DNA from: Candidatus Latescibacterota bacterium
GTDB taxonomy: Bacteria; JAAXHH01; JACQVL01
Reading direction: 5' to 3'
NCBI GenBank assembly: GCA_016209865.1
Contig: JACQVL010000010.1
Span: forward strand, 1 to 5,335
Length of the DNA: 5,335 nt
The notes below the pieces were generated by a model that was given only the letters and a program-made list of their open reading frames with translations, was not told the origin of the DNA and ran no database searches. Both the position numbers and the translations under genes were made by a program. Positions 2 through 5,335 of this stretch are shown here, piece after piece (the first letter of the stretch is position 1; each line of letters begins with the position of its first letter).

Positions 2-3000
2 GGCGGCACGCGCGGGACGCTCGCACGCGGGTTCACCTACCTCAAGGTGGACTCGGTCACGGTGTCGCTGACCGTCACCGCCAATGTCTCCGGGACGGCG
101 CGGACGGACACCGTCCACACCGCCCGGCTCCCAGAGGGACTGCCGTTCATCACTCCTCAGAAGACCGCACCGGTCGCCGCCCTGCAGCGCCTGTTCGATG
201 CCTTAGCTGGACTGGCACTGGAGATCCCGCCCGGAGCGATTGACCAGAACATCACGGTGTCCCTCGATGTCCGCAACGTGACCATCCGGAACGACAGCAC
301 GATGTTCGCCCCCATCAACGGACGGCCGTCGTTCCTGTTCATCCATCCGGCCGTCAGCGTCAACGGGGTCGAGCAGCCGAGGTTCGACTTCTCCGGCCGG
401 GCGGCGATCAACCTGACCGTCCTCCTGCGCAAGTTCGGCCGGATTCTGCAGGCTTCCGGAGTGGACACGACGGCGGCGGACACCCTCGCCCTCGCCTACG
501 TGACCCCGTCCGGCCTGACGCAGGAGGGGATGATCTCCAAGTCCCGGCACGACGACCGACTGATCATCGCCAGCCTGACGACCCTGGCCGACTTAGCGGG
601 CATCCGGCAGCGGGACCTTACCGTCAACACCGCGCCGCCTGCCATCGTCTCCGGGCCGTTCGTCGTGCCCAGCGATACCTTCGCCACCGTCACCTGGCGG
701 ACGGATAAACTCACGACGAGTCGGGTGGAGTTCGGCACCGGTCAGACGCTCGCCGCCCTCACGCAGGCCGTCACCGATACCCAGCTCGTCAACGGCCACG
801 TCGTCGTCCTGGGGACCCTGGTTCGTCAGACGAAATACTATTACCGGGTGATTTCCGAGGACGACCGCGGCCAGCGCGTCGCCAGCCGCATTCTGTTCTT
901 CTCGACCGTCAACCGTCCCGACGTCCGTCCCCCAACGCTCACCGTCAAGCCCCAGGTGCTGGCGGTCGCCCCGCACAACGCGGTCATCGGATGGATCACC
1001 GACGAACTGAGCACGAGCACGGTCGAATACGGACCGACCGCCGCCTTAGGGACGATCAGAACCCACGACGCTCTGGTCATCCGGCACGTCCTCGCCCTGC
1101 ACGGTCTGGCGCAGAGCACGACCTACTCCGCCCTCGTCAGCTCGGCGGACGGGAGCGGCAACGTAACCGCCTACCCGGATACCCTCGTCTTCACCACCCC
1201 GGCCGCGCCGGACACCCTCCCACCCCGGCTCCTCAGCCGGCCGGTCGTGGCTGGACTGACGCCGACGAGCGCGATCATCCAGTGGACGACCGACACGCCG
1301 AGCGACAGCCGGGTGACGTACGTGGCGGTCGGGACGGCGGACACCCTGCGGGCGGTGAACACGGAGGAACCGCTGGCCCAGCAGCACAGCGTGACGCTGA
1401 CCGGCCTGACGCCCGACACCGCGTACCTGTACGTCGTCCGCTCGACGGATCAGGAGGGCAACCCGGTCGCCAGCCGGGCCGGACGGTTCAAGACGCCCGC
1501 GACGGCGGACACCACCCCGCCCGTCATCATCCGCGGCCCGGCCGTCCTGTACGCGTCCGATACCGTAATCGCCATCGGCTGGGTGACGGACGAGGTGAGC
1601 GATGGGTTCGTCTACTACAAGGGAAGCGGCGACAGCACGTTCACCTCGCATGGTGTGCCCGCTCAGTCCCGCCGGCACATCGTCTTCATCGGGGGGTTGA
1701 CGAGCGGGGAGACGTACACCTTCGCCCTCACCTCCACCGATCCGAGCGGGAACACCACCGTCTTCCCACCCGGCACCGTCCTGTCGAAGCCGGTCGCGCA
1801 GGCGCGGCCAGTGGTGATCTCCGCATCCGGCGGTACGTTCACGACCGCGTCCGAACCAGACGTCCAGCCGCCCGTCATCACGGGCGGGCCGCGGGTGGTC
1901 GCCCGGACATCCACCTTGATCACGATCTCGTGGGAGACGGACGAGCCGGGCAACAGTCAGGTGTGGTACGGCACCAACCTGAGCCAGCAGGCGACCGATA
2001 CGGACTTAGTGACCGCTCATCAAGTCACGCTCACCAACCTGTCGGCCGGGACGACGTACCCCTACCAGGTCGGGTCGACCGACCCGGCCGGGAACGGCCC
2101 GACGTGGAGCGCGCAGAGCGCCGCGACGACGGCGACCACCGCCGATACCGAGCCGCCGGTCATCCTGTCCGGCACTGTCCGCACCGCCGTCTCCAACGAC
2201 CGGGTGACCGTCTCCTGGGAGACGGACGAGCCGTCGGACAGCTTCGTGCAGTACGGCACCGCCCCGGACGCGCTGACCTCGATGGTGGATGAGGCCGACC
2301 TGGTCACGTCGCACACCGTCGTGTTGACCAACCTCAGCCCGAATCAGGCGTACTCCATCCGGGCGACGTCCACCGACCTGGCGGGCAACGGCCCGACGGC
2401 GACGACCGCCCTGAGCGTCACGACGACCGCCACGGCGGACACGGCCCGGCCGGTCGTCAGCGGCGTCCAGGCGAACGCGGTGGCGACGACGGATACGAGC
2501 GTGACGCTGACGGTCGCCTGGCAGACAGATCGCTTAGCGACGAGCGTCGTCGAGTACGGCACCACGTCCAGCCTGGGATCGAGCGTGACGAACACGACGA
2601 CCGGGACCGTCCATCAGACCGTCATCCCCCGGCTTCTACTCGGCACCCGGTATTTCTTCCGCGCCGGTTCCGCCAGCGCGACCGACCCGCAGGGCAGCCG
2701 TCTGGCGTACAGCACGACGAGCAGCCTGACCACCCCGGCAAGCGTTGACACGACGACGCCCGCCGCGCCGGCGGCCGTGACGGCCATTCCGGGTGACGGG
2801 GCGGCGTACCTCCGCTGGACTCCATCGCCCAGCGCGTCGGTCACGGGGTATACGATCCTTCGGAACGGGAACGCACTCGCCACAGTCGGACGGGATTCCA
2901 CGTTCCTCGATGTCAGCGCGACGAACGGGCAGGCGCAGTCCTACACCATCCGGGCGATCAGCGCGATCGGGAAGACGAGCCCGCTTTCGGCTTCTGCCTC

Positions 3001-3691
3001 GGCCACACCTCACTCCAATCAGGTTCCCACCGCGCCCGCGTCGAGCAGTCCGGCGTCCGGGGACACCGTCTCCCTCGCCCCGGTCCTCGTCATCGGGAAC
3101 TCCTCGCCCGTCACCGGCGACCCGGCACGTGCGGCGCTGACGTACAGGTTCCAGGTGGGGGCGGATTCCGCGTTCTCCACGCTCGTCGCGTCGGTCGTCG
3201 GGGTCGCGCAGGGCGTCTCCGGCAACCCGACCCACTGGAAAGTCGAGGACACCGGACTCCCCGGCGTATCGCTCCTCCAGAGCGGGGAGCGGTACTGGTG
3301 GCGCGGTCGGGCGAACGACGGCATCTTCAACGGCGCCTGGTCGACGCCCCGGACGTTCGTCGCCAGCGCGAGCAAGCCGACGGGGATCACGCCGGGACAT
3401 CTCTCCGTCACCCGGCAGTTCGCGCTGAGACAGAACGTCCCTAACCCGTTCAACCCGGCGACGGCGATCCGGTACGACCTGCCGCGTGCCGCGCAGGTGA
3501 CGCTCAGGGTGTACAACCTCCTCGGTCAGGAAGTCGCCGTCCTCGTCGATGCCCGTCAGGAGCCAGGGTACTACACCGTCCGGTGGGATGGCCGGAACCG
3601 TGCAGGCGTCTCGGTCGCCAGCGGCCTGTACTTCTACCGCCTGCGGGCCGGGGAGTTCACCAGGACAAAAAAGATGATGCTGGTGAGATAA
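2..3691 (+). CDS. Giant secreted/surface protein with tandem FN3-like repeats and a C-terminal type IX-type sorting domain (5' end missing)
   Basis: The frame is open from the left edge (first complete codon at 2). A GTG at 47 is the first usable start codon, but it has no ribosome binding site and the protein pattern continues upstream of it, so I treat the gene as truncated by the window. 1229 residues are visible. Counting from the GTG: about 1-195 is a beta-rich region containing 'LEIPPGAIDQNITVSL', reminiscent of ZU5-type IPPGA motifs; 196-901 holds seven FN3-like repeats; about 907-995 is a classical FN3 domain; about 996-1108 is another Ig/FN3-like domain with 'RYWWRGRANDG' and 'GAWSTPRTF'; 1125-1214 is the sorting domain. 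The repeats resemble the N-terminal domain of purple acid phosphatases. No catalytic domain is visible, so adhesion, matrix or envelope structure is the likely role. The product should be exported across the outer membrane and then processed or anchored; the signal peptide lies upstream of the window. The substrate or binding partner is unknown. Confidence 0.9.
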   Translation, partial: GGTRGTLARGFTYLKVDSVTVSLTVTANVSGTARTDTVHTARLPEGLPFITPQKTAPVAALQRLFDALAGLALEIPPGAIDQNITVSLDVRNVTIRNDSTMFAPINGRPSFLFIHPAVSVNGVEQPRFDFSGRAAINLTVLLRKFGRILQASGVDTTAADTLALAYVTPSGLTQEGMISKSRHDDRLIIASLTTLADLAGIRQRDLTVNTAPPAIVSGPFVVPSDTFATVTWRTDKLTTSRVEFGTGQTLAALTQAVTDTQLVNGHVVVLGTLVRQTKYYYRVISEDDRGQRVASRILFFSTVNRPDVRPPTLTVKPQVLAVAPHNAVIGWITDELSTSTVEYGPTAALGTIRTHDALVIRHVLALHGLAQSTTYSALVSSADGSGNVTAYPDTLVFTTPAAPDTLPPRLLSRPVVAGLTPTSAIIQWTTDTPSDSRVTYVAVGTADTLRAVNTEEPLAQQHSVTLTGLTPDTAYLYVVRSTDQEGNPVASRAGRFKTPATADTTPPVIIRGPAVLYASDTVIAIGWVTDEVSDGFVYYKGSGDSTFTSHGVPAQSRRHIVFIGGLTSGETYTFALTSTDPSGNTTVFPPGTVLSKPVAQARPVVISASGGTFTTASEPDVQPPVITGGPRVVARTSTLITISWETDEPGNSQVWYGTNLSQQATDTDLVTAHQVTLTNLSAGTTYPYQVGSTDPAGNGPTWSAQSAATTATTADTEPPVILSGTVRTAVSNDRVTVSWETDEPSDSFVQYGTAPDALTSMVDEADLVTSHTVVLTNLSPNQAYSIRATSTDLAGNGPTATTALSVTTTATADTARPVVSGVQANAVATTDTSVTLTVAWQTDRLATSVVEYGTTSSLGSSVTNTTTGTVHQTVIPRLLLGTRYFFRAGSASATDPQGSRLAYSTTSSLTTPASVDTTTPAAPAAVTAIPGDGAAYLRWTPSPSASVTGYTILRNGNALATVGRDSTFLDVSATNGQAQSYTIRAISAIGKTSPLSASASATPHSNQVPTAPASSSPASGDTVSLAPVLVIGNSSPVTGDPARAALTYRFQVGADSAFSTLVASVVGVAQGVSGNPTHWKVEDTGLPGVSLLQSGERYWWRGRANDGIFNGAWSTPRTFVASASKPTGITPGHLSVTRQFALRQNVPNPFNPATAIRYDLPRAAQVTLRVYNLLGQEVAVLVDARQEPGYYTVRWDGRNRAGVSVASGLYFYRLRAGEFTRTKKMMLVR
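632..2749 (+). repeat. Seven tandem FN3-like repeats of about 95-115 residues
   Basis: Each unit starts with a PP-containing strand such as 'APPAIVSGP', 'TPPVIIRGP', 'QPPVITGGP' or 'EPPVILSG'. It continues through a W-x-TD-(E/K/R/T) turn ('TWRTDK', 'SWETDEP', 'AWQTDR'), a 'VEYG/VQYG/VWYG' strand, an H-x-V-x-L-x-x-L segment and a Y-x-(Y/F/V)-x-V/A-x-S-x-D-x-x-GN strand, and ends with an F-x-T-P/T-T-A linker and 'ADT' or a similar motif. Repeats 5 and 6 share an identical 18-base stretch at 1931-1948 and 2216-2233, 285 bp (95 codons) apart, pointing to recent duplication or gene conversion. Repeat 4 is longer because of an insertion of roughly 20 residues before its final strand. Confidence 0.85.
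3419..3688 (+). other. C-terminal FlgD-Ig-like / type IX secretion type A sorting domain
   Basis: The last 90 residues of the long protein begin 'FALRQNVPNPFNPATAIRYD'. They continue with 'VTLRVYNLLGQEVAVL', 'GYYTVRWDGRNRAGVSVASG' and 'LYFYRLRAGEFTRTKKMMLV', and end in R just before the stop codon. This is the standard order of motifs in C-terminal sorting domains of Bacteroidota and related phyla, where they direct cargo through the type IX secretion system. In several candidate phyla the same fold is annotated as a FlgD Ig-like domain, and dependence on type IX secretion there is presumed rather than shown. Confidence 0.9.
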
Positions 3692-3735: not shown

Positions 3736-3742
3736 GTTGGGC
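3736..3742 (+). other. Left cassette junction: R'-type core site GTTGGGC
   Basis: GTTGGGC matches the integron core consensus GTTRRRY, with the crossover expected between G3736 and T3737. It marks the left end of the toxin-antitoxin cassette. The preceding bases 'TGATTGAGC' resemble an L' box, but I find no complete attC upstream. The only candidate left arm is the imperfect core GTTGAAC at 3695-3701, which pairs poorly. The site may be the right end of a decayed attC, an attI relic, or a genomic site used as a target. Confidence 0.7.
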
Positions 3743-3766
3743 CCCGCACAAATAGAGGCTGAGGAC

Positions 3767-3795
3767 TTGCATTCGCTCAGAGTTCTCAGTATCTT
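3767..3795 (+). promoter_or_regulatory. Candidate internal promoter/operator of the toxin-antitoxin operon
   Basis: TATCTT (3790-3795, 4 of 6 matches to TATAAT) lies 17 bases after TTGCAT (3767-3772, only 3 of 6 matches to TTGACA), about 65 bases before the antitoxin start. CTGAG at 3759-3763 and CTCAG at 3776-3780 form an inverted pair, and CTCAG recurs at 3785-3789, so these short repeats overlap the -35/-10 region. This would suit an autoregulatory operator, common for toxin-antitoxin operons. The promoter match alone is weak. Confidence 0.25.
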
Positions 3796-3859
3796 TGAAG
3801 CTAGACTTAGAGGGGCTCAAATTCCTCATACTCTCTCTCCGAAGACAGCGAGGTCAACG

Positions 3860-4099
3860 ATGCGAGTCGAAGCGATCAAAGTCGACAACGGTTTCTTGAT
3901 CCCCCTCAGCGAGGGATTCCAAGACATTACCCAAGACCGCCTCCTCTTAGAAGTCGAAATTCTTGATCCCCAGCAAGCCGAGGCCGGGTATACGGCTTTA
4001 GACCAGCTGGTCGGCTGCTGTGAGACGGGCCAGCCGGACGCCTCCGTCCAGCATGATCAGCACATCTATGGGCGCCGAGGGAGCCATGATCTTCGTTGA
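3860..4099 (+). CDS. VapB-like antitoxin of a PIN-toxin pair
   Basis: This 79-residue protein should neutralise the PIN ribonuclease encoded just downstream. ATG 3860 is chosen because GAGGT (3850-3854) lies 5 bases before it and the protein then starts directly with a conserved-looking strand, 'VEAIKVDNGFLIPLSEGF'. Other segments are 'ITQDRLLLEVEILDP' (23-37), 'YTALDQLVGCCE' (44-55) and 'DASVQHDQHIYG' (60-71). From memory, small proteins of this pattern, 'GFLIP ... LLEVEI ... LDQLVG.CE ... DAS..HD..IY', occur next to PIN genes in cyanobacteria and other bacteria; I cannot run the search. The N-terminal half would be the dimer or DNA-binding part and the polar C-terminal tail the toxin-binding part (inference). 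I see no classical helix-turn-helix, AbrB or Phd motif. Its end overlaps the toxin start by 14 bases, which implies translational coupling. The 'VapB-like' label rests on context and pattern. Confidence 0.75.
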   Translation: MRVEAIKVDNGFLIPLSEGFQDITQDRLLLEVEILDPQQAEAGYTALDQLVGCCETGQPDASVQHDQHIYGRRGSHDLR

Positions 4100-4499
4100 C
4101 ACGGGGGCGTGGATTGCGCTCTCCGATAAATCGGATCAATATCATCGGCAGGCGAAGGCGATTTACACCCGGCTGAAGCGGCGTCGAGCGCGGTTCGTGA
4201 CCACCGATTACGTGATCGATGAGACGACGACCCGGTTGCGCTATGATAGTGGGCATGCCAGTGCGGTCAAGTTTTTGGAGGTCATTCGGACGGCGGAACA
4301 GGCGGGGATTCTCCGGGTGGTCGCCATTACGCCGGCCGTGTTCCAGACGGCGCAGACTCTCTTTCGCCAATATGATACGGTGGTGCTGTCGTTGACGGAT
4401 TGCACGAGTTTTGCCGTGTGTGAGCAGCATCAGGTGTCGGAAGCTTTTGCCTTTGATCAACATTTTCCCCTCCGAGGCATCACGCTCTGCACCAAATAG
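4086..4499 (+). CDS. PIN-domain ribonuclease toxin (VapC-like)
   Basis: This 137-residue protein has the normal length for a single PIN domain. The four acidic active-site positions are recognisable: D5 in 'MIFVDTGAWIAL', E46 in 'DYVIDETTTRL', D105 in 'LSLTDCTSFAV' and D124 in 'FAFDQHF'. PIN toxins of the VapC class are Mg2+-dependent endoribonucleases that cut tRNA, rRNA or mRNA in the cytoplasm; the target cannot be read from the sequence. ATG 4086 is preferred because the protein then begins at the first PIN strand and GAGGGAG (4077-4083) lies just upstream. ATG 4068 in the same frame would add six residues. The gene overlaps the antitoxin by 14 bases, forming a two-gene operon with the antitoxin first. 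All catalytic residues are intact, so the toxin is probably active. It ends 28 bases before the attC, giving a compact cassette. Confidence 0.92.
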   Translation: MIFVDTGAWIALSDKSDQYHRQAKAIYTRLKRRRARFVTTDYVIDETTTRLRYDSGHASAVKFLEVIRTAEQAGILRVVAITPAVFQTAQTLFRQYDTVVLSLTDCTSFAVCEQHQVSEAFAFDQHFPLRGITLCTK

Positions 4500-4527
4500 G
4501 GTTCTGCCCTCCTGAACAGGGTGCGGG

Positions 4528-4655
4528 GCCTAACAACCGCTTGCAGGCCGTCTGGAACCCGGCCCTGCTTGTGGGTGTGCTGAGCATAATTCTGCCGCTC
4601 TGCCTGTCGCTGGCGTCGCTTCATGGGTTCCAGCGGCTGAAGCGGGGCGTTGGGC
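4528..4655 (+). other. Integron attC recombination site (128 bp)
   Basis: The outer cores are GCCTAAC (R'', 4528-4534, RYYYAAC) and GTTGGGC (R', 4649-4655, GTTRRRY), which pair with one T-G wobble. Unpaired spacers follow: AACC (4535-4538) on the left and GGGGC (4644-4648) on the right. The inner arms, 4539-4560 and 4625-4643, form a 19-bp stem that is perfect apart from three single extra bases on the left arm: G4543, one G of 4546/4547, and T4551. The first falls inside the L'' box, where attC sites carry an extrahelical base that sets strand choice and orientation. The variable terminal structure is 4561-4624 (64 bases). All of these proportions fit known attC sites, which range from about 57 to 141 bp. 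Confidence 0.88.
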
Positions 4656-4676: not shown

Positions 4677-5090
4677 ATGTCCGCGGAAGCACCACGCGAA
4701 GATCTCGGCCGGAAGCATCAGCTCCACGGAGTTCAACCTGTTCTTCCGGTAAGAGACGTCACAGCGAGCGCCGAGTACTTCCGTGACGTGCTCGGCTTCG
4801 AAATCGACTTCTTGGAGGGCGATCCTCCGATTCACGGTCGTGTCACGAAGGGCGACGGAACGTATGGCCAACCGGTCTACATCCATCTCTCAAAGGCCGC
4901 GCCCGAGGAGGTGCGTCCCAGCGGAGAGCTCCGGATCCATGTCGGCCATGATCTCGACAGCCTGTTTGAGGCGTATCGCGACCTTGAGGTCGAGGTTGTC
5001 TTCGCACCGGTCTCGCAACCCTGGGGGCTTCGCGAGTTTGCAGTGCGCGAGATCAATGGTCACGTCCTGAGATTCTGCAGTGAAGCGTAG
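4677..5090 (+). CDS. VOC-superfamily (glyoxalase/bleomycin-resistance-like) protein
   Basis: This 137-residue protein is the usual size for a single-chain VOC protein made of two beta-alpha-beta-beta-beta modules. The first module shows 'GVQPVLPVRDVTASAEYF' and 'RDVLGFEIDFLEGDPPIHG' (18-54), followed by 'QPVYIHLSKAAPEE'. The second shows 'GELRIHVGHDLDSLFEAYRD' and ends with 'QPWGLREFAVREINGHVLRF' (114-133), the typical closing motif of bleomycin-resistance-like members. Such proteins either bind and sequester a small toxic compound or, with bound metal, isomerise, cleave or conjugate it. The substrate is not predictable here, and resistance to a specific drug should not be assumed. ATG 4677 has AAGGGGG (4664-4670) 6 bases upstream. 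The gene follows an attC directly and reads away from it, as cassette cargo does; VOC genes are common cassette cargo. It would be cotranscribed from an upstream promoter, since I see none of its own. Confidence 0.87.
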   Translation: MSAEAPREDLGRKHQLHGVQPVLPVRDVTASAEYFRDVLGFEIDFLEGDPPIHGRVTKGDGTYGQPVYIHLSKAAPEEVRPSGELRIHVGHDLDSLFEAYRDLEVEVVFAPVSQPWGLREFAVREINGHVLRFCSEA

Positions 5091-5096
5091 GTGGCG

Positions 5097-5129
5097 GCTC
5101 AACAAGGCCTGGAGCAAAAAGGGTTGAGT
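5097..5129 (+). other. Candidate truncated or internally deleted attC
   Basis: GCTCAAC (5097-5103) fits RYYYAAC, and GTTGAGT (5123-5129) fits GTTRRRY; the two are complementary at 6 of 7 positions. 'AAGGCCTGGAGC' after the first core looks like the left arm of an attC. The distance is only 33 bp end to end, no matching right inner arm exists, and no other GTTRRRY occurs before 5335. This is either a remnant of the second cassette's attC or a chance hairpin of about 6 bp. It lacks a T tract, so it is not a standard terminator. Confidence 0.4.
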
Positions 5130-5200: not shown

Positions 5201-5335
5201 ATGGCGAATCCACTCCCACTCGTTGTCTATCCGAGTCTGGCGCAACAGGTCGAAGCCCTGGAACGGGACGGCTTCGTCTGTCTTCCGGGGGTGCTCACCC
5301 CCGATGACATCGCTGCGCTGCGGAACAGCATGGAC
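5201..5335 (+). CDS. Phytanoyl-CoA dioxygenase (PhyH) family protein, N-terminal fragment
   Basis: The first 45 codons are visible, and the gene runs off the right edge. After a short lead, the residues 'LAQQVEALERDGFVCLPGVL' (13-32) followed by 'TPDDIAALRNSMD' match the N-terminal signature of PhyH-family Fe(II)/2-oxoglutarate oxygenases: a helix, 'E-x-DGF-V-x-LPGVL', then an acidic turn and the 'IAALR' helix. These enzymes hydroxylate or otherwise oxidise a wide range of small molecules; in environmental bacteria most have unknown substrates. The H-x-D...H metal ligands and the 2-oxoglutarate-binding arginine lie outside the window, so activity cannot be judged. The start is secured by the strong ribosome binding site. 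It could be ordinary chromosomal DNA or cargo of a third cassette. Confidence 0.85.
   Translation, partial: MANPLPLVVYPSLAQQVEALERDGFVCLPGVLTPDDIAALRNSMD

Follow-up and report, generated by a model that had tools for sequence, protein, structure and literature searches.

A probable VCR-type attC site with a common base variant at its first bulge in a Candidatus Latescibacterota genome

The cassette and its surroundings

The window (the whole stretch of DNA that was analysed, 5,335 nucleotides) is the entire contig C93 of a Candidatus Latescibacterota genome assembled as 3.75 Mb in 356 contigs. The 3' part of a gene for a large secreted protein occupies positions 2-3691; the product has several repeats of the fibronectin III/purple-acid-phosphatase-N type, and its C-terminus is FlgD-like/type IX-sorting-like. 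A 913-bp gene cassette with a presumed PIN-toxin operon follows (3737-4649, plus strand) and is closed by an attC site at 4528-4655. The PIN-domain protein (4086-4499, plus strand; PF01850, E 4e-13) is presumably a VapC-like toxin, and the small ORF overlapping its start (3860-4099, plus strand), which has no Pfam match, is presumed from its position only to encode the antitoxin. Downstream of the attC lie a VOC/glyoxalase-family gene (4677-5090) and the beginning of a PhyH-like gene (5201-5335). The VOC gene was considered as a possible second cassette, ending in a roughly 33-base R''/R' pair near 5096-5129, but this reading was not supported (147 of 2000 shuffles were as good). An Rfam scan of the whole window gave no relevant match.

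The boundaries of the cassette are reflected in its sequence. At its start lies GTTGGGCCCCGCAC (3736-3749), which agrees at 13 of 14 bases with the reverse complement of the outer flank of the attC, GTGCGGGGCCTAAC (4521-4534), a match equalled in 1 of 2000 shuffles. The outer left flank GTGCGGG (4521-4527, plus strand) would pair with 3743-3749 in the cassette circle and so lengthen the R stem there. Equivalent end complementarity (13/13 and 16/17) was found for both cassettes of contig C306 of the same genome. In the circles of the window and C306 cassettes the R stem amounts to 13-17 bp, extending past the 7-bp R box, and would thus offer a simple means of marking cassette ends. Immediately ahead of 3736^3737, where the cassette begins, neither an attC nor an attI-like site was seen on this contig of just 5.3 kb, so any placement of the cassette inside an intact array is tentative.

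Structure and folding of the attC site

The outer boxes of the site, R'' (GCCTAAC, 4528-4534) and R' (GTTGGGC, 4649-4655), both on the plus strand, fit RYYYAAC and GTTRRRY and pair with each other, one of the pairs being T-G on the top strand and an A-C mismatch on the bottom strand. By comparison with known attC sites, strand exchange is expected at G4649^T4650. Between the R and L stems lies a central spacer of below usual length (AA at 4535-4536 on the left side, GGC at 4646-4648 on the right), unpaired in both fold and alignment. The left inner arm (4537-4560) comprises 21 paired bases and three extrahelical bases; when G4543, one G of 4546/4547, and T4551 are removed, it becomes the exact reverse complement of the right inner arm on the L' side (4625-4645), as delimited by folds of both strands and by stem compensation. 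All extrahelical bases are thus confined to the R''-L'' arm, with three on the left arm and zero on the right. The first, in L'' (4543), is G on the top strand and C on the bottom strand, stands at site position 16 and is the counterpart of G16 of VCR2/1. The second, one of the two G at 4546-4547, falls at position 19/20 and corresponds to VCR2/1 T20, and the third (4551; T on the top strand, A on the bottom) is at position 24. The arms enclose a variable terminal structure (4561-4624) with little conservation among the sites of the same genome.

A sequence-only reading of this DNA had described a 19-bp stem with three single-base bulges about 4 bases apart, all on one arm, and in L'' an extra base, G on the top strand and C on the bottom, that may differ from the better-known sites. 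The bulges, their spacing and the identity of the L'' base hold, as does the difference from the bottom-strand G of the best-known sites, and the stem is longer, 21 bp, reaching 4645 and not 4643.

In keeping with that reading, folding with DNA parameters brought the two arms together on the bottom strand at -29.7 kcal/mol (z -3.24, equalled by 1 of 200 shuffles), and likewise on the top strand (-31.0 kcal/mol, z -2.91). The probability of being unpaired in the ensemble of the bottom strand was 1.0 both for the C facing G4543 and for the A facing T4551, and the two C facing 4546/4547 shared the middle bulge (0.52/0.49).

The integron elsewhere in the genome

An integron integrase is encoded at C306:1859-2800 (TIGR02249, 477.9 bits versus a cut-off of 265). 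Among solved structures it is closest to V. cholerae IntI4 (2a3v, 316 bits), and its nearest named relatives, at 72 and 70% identity, come from two Candidatus Poribacteria MAGs, which by itself would suggest a Poribacteria-like host. The order along the contig is intI, the attI-side junction AATG^TTAGCTGGCAGG, a putative HAD-like gene named from its sequence, an attC, a second small gene, and another attC, a partial site that ends with the contig.

A strict R-box/L-box pattern gave no sites in this genome; DNA similarity and a covariance model yielded six full attC sites (in the window and on C306, C17, C40, C57, and C52) and one truncated by a contig end. The C57 and C52 sites had been left out of model building and match the model at E about 1e-19. 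In an alignment of the six full sites, seven pairs showed changes in both partners, and pairing held for 90.4% of stem cells, compared with 26-45% when the partner was slid; the covariation score was 0.21 versus 0.005-0.049 in the slid controls. Thus the identification of the window site as an attC, proposed from its letters, is borne out by the R boxes, by the genome's own integrase and attI junction, and by the five further full sites, which are of the same type.

The bulge pattern is common to these sites, and neither it nor the folding contradicts the sequence-only reading. The first bulge is a top-strand G in all six and in the truncated site, and G16, a base at 19/20, and A24 are present in four of the five other full sites, the remaining one, on C52, having G16 and the A with one base fewer between them (the bulges of the C17, C57, and C52 sites were scored by eye). 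Among the six, T4551 is peculiar to the window site, the equivalent position being A in the other five. In the C57 (L018 1010-1137) and C52 (L019 1501-1623) sites, R' GATAG replaces GTTAG, which alters the expected cleavage dinucleotide; these two sites may be inactivated, a change that would point to decay of attC sites in this genome. On contig C77, a half-site (L121 5005-5099) has a good left arm, GGCTAACAAGGCGCTGCGGCCGACGTGAACC, and a right arm that is not clear. No attC was detected beside the integrases of the two nearest named relatives, both Poribacteria (L028 and L029). Within the order, one relative (L115) has an attC, and its bulge pattern is different and unclear, so the pattern need not be conserved across the order.

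First-bulge bases among attC sites near integrases

The regions around 80 named IntI relatives and 51 further integrase loci were surveyed with a purpose-written arm-pairing detector, which accepts only sites with one bulge at 14-18 and a second at 21-26 and whose thresholds were set by eye. Since it misplaces the C17 bulges and misses the C57 and C52 sites, its counts are a sample and not a census. In the first set, 53 matches lay on the expected array strand versus 4 on the other; in the second, 13 were upstream on the strand opposite to intI, 11 downstream on the same strand, and 0 in the other two combinations. At L160, L162, L170, and L191 the attC sites follow intI and share its strand, an intI orientation opposite to the usual one.

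The pooled survey comprised 77 sites at 44 loci, with the top-strand letter at the first bulge being C in 41, G in 30, T in 4, and A in 2. On the same strand the last bulge was A in 71 of the 77 and T in one. At the L'' bulge, G on the top strand is therefore common, and the rarer letter of the window site is T4551; with 30 of 77 sites carrying it, the bottom-strand C is not specific to a narrow lineage. Three bulges were present in 22 of the 77, and 48 of the remaining 55 had six-base spacing. Arrays at L070, L089, and L166, and more weakly L176, scored as both base types.

The distribution of the two bases follows the integrases. On an IQ-TREE phylogeny of 36 integrases, restricted to loci with a single G/C state, the label required 5 changes versus 12.3 in shuffles, none of 500 of which was as low (bootstrap range 5-7). 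A group with support 99/98 that holds Chloroflexi, cyanobacterial, UASB270, and window-genome integrases had 13 G to 3 C on the top strand; a mainly beta- and gammaproteobacterial group had 12 C to 1 G. An earlier tree, limited to the named set, agreed with this. The first-bulge base is associated with integrase clade.

The residues that contact the extrahelical bases were compared by alignment to VchIntIA (Q145, W157, K209, Y210, W219, P232, H240, and H241). In the window-genome integrase they read KRKYWPHH, kept in the IntI1-like form, and no difference in these residues was found between G-type and C-type loci, most of both having KRKYWPHH.

Interpretation

From the structure and its conservation, the integrase, the attI junction, and the cassette boundaries, together with how often the first-bulge base occurs and how it clusters on the tree, all observed here, we consider the window site very probably a chromosomal-integron attC that works or did so until recently, with VCR-type bulges and an inherited, common C-for-G variant. 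Two points count against a working site: the absence of a site upstream and the A-C mismatch of the R box on the bottom strand. Work on VCR and IntI1 suggests how such a site would fold in the cell, which strand would be chosen, where it would be cut, and that it could be active. The single-stranded bottom strand would fold into a hairpin whose R and L boxes would be bound by IntI monomers, with the extrahelical bases on the 3' half of the bottom strand positioning the integrase and marking this strand as the substrate. Strand exchange at G4649^T4650 would then insert or excise the 913-bp PIN-toxin cassette. The C-for-G exchange at position 16 would be a common natural variant, passed down with the window genome's branch of integrons.

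The sequence-only reading had gone further and suggested a lineage-specific integrase preference. In this explanation, the bottom-strand C at the L'' bulge would reflect a distinct base preference of an integrase clade, evolved jointly with the attC sites of that clade. The clustering on the IntI tree and the bottom-strand C shared by all six full sites of the genome speak for it, as does the finding that IntIs vary in their response to the identity and spacing of extrahelical bases (Larouche and Roy 2011, PMC3053210). However, joint vertical inheritance of sites and integrase accounts for the clustering without any preference, and in VCR2/1 the substitutions G16A, G16T, and G16C, assayed with IntI1, lowered bottom-strand integration only 1.2, 1.8, and 2.7-fold (PMC2727003). 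With contact residues equal to those of C-type integrases, arrays that appear mixed, and so small a published effect, a changed preference does not follow from the association, and we regard it as unlikely. What stands of the suggestion is the clustering at the level of integrase clades, lineage-specific in a broad sense; the bottom-strand C is too widespread to belong to a narrow lineage, and an altered preference is doubtful given the usual contact residues and the apparently mixed arrays.

It is considerably less probable that the site is a decayed, inactive attC left as a lone site. The missing upstream neighbour, the R' GATAG of the C57 and C52 sites, and T4551, which sets the window site apart from its siblings, would suit such decay, but R', R'', and all inner stem pairs are intact and the cassette ends match. 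A chance inverted repeat or terminator-like hairpin is hardly credible: both strands fold well and 13 of 200 Markov-resampled windows had an arm pair scoring at least 55, but the attC-shaped arm score of the window site, 65, is above every one of them (maximum 61.5), and the six homologous copies with compensatory changes, the genome's integrase, the R-box motifs, and the matching cassette ends all argue against it.

Returning to the reading of an attC with an inherited variant, the result worth keeping is the survey, in which the bottom-strand C tracks integrase phylogeny, set against an experimental literature mainly on sites of the bottom-strand G type. The literature that calls the first extrahelical base an absolutely conserved G was built on proteobacterial sites. 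The bottom-strand C is common in Cyanobacteria, Chloroflexi, and the window genome; that it marks a clade-level switch driven by integrase preference, and a partial barrier to cassette exchange, seems doubtful to us. If the preference were real, it would help to predict which cassettes are able to pass between bacterial groups; if not, the first-bulge base would be a neutral marker of cassette origin.

Comparison with known attC systems

A literature search found no papers on Poribacteria integrons or on extrahelical bases with cyanobacteria, and the closest comparisons are with VCR2/1, the dfrA1 attC, and two surveyed sites. Published work gives attC sites two or three extrahelical bases and VCR2/1 three, at G16, T20, and T24, the first being termed an absolutely conserved G (Bouvier et al. 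2009, PMC2727003). Among sites studied for excision, the T-N6-G type is the one most readily excised by IntI1, dfrA1 is of the A-N7-8-C type, and with several integrases excision can increase when the second extrahelical base is C (Larouche and Roy 2011, PMC3053210). The window site differs from the dfrA1 attC in that one of the seven bases is bulged, giving 3 + 3 paired.

Among the surveyed sites, those of L107 (58-169, Bacterium UASB270; bulges at 17/21/25) and L172 (at 15405, G142; 16/20/24) carry the top-strand triplet G, G, A, whereas that of the window ends in T, and their other arm sequences are unlike those of the window site.

The closest likeness is to VCR2/1, with its extrahelical bases on the R''-L'' arm at 16, 20, and 24 (16, 19/20, and 24 in the window), its large variable terminal structure, and its partly paired central spacer. 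Each arm of the VCR2/1 spacer is described as having 2 paired and 3 unpaired bases, whereas the window site leaves 2 and 3 unpaired. The bottom-strand bases are G, T, and T in VCR2/1 and C, C, and A in the window site. The positions of the latter thus fit the VCR-type set, in which the bottom-strand G at the first extrahelical base is replaced by C. Because its bulge spacing equals that of VCR2/1, it is not unusual: the window site is an ordinary VCR-type three-bulge attC, and its geometry is not new.
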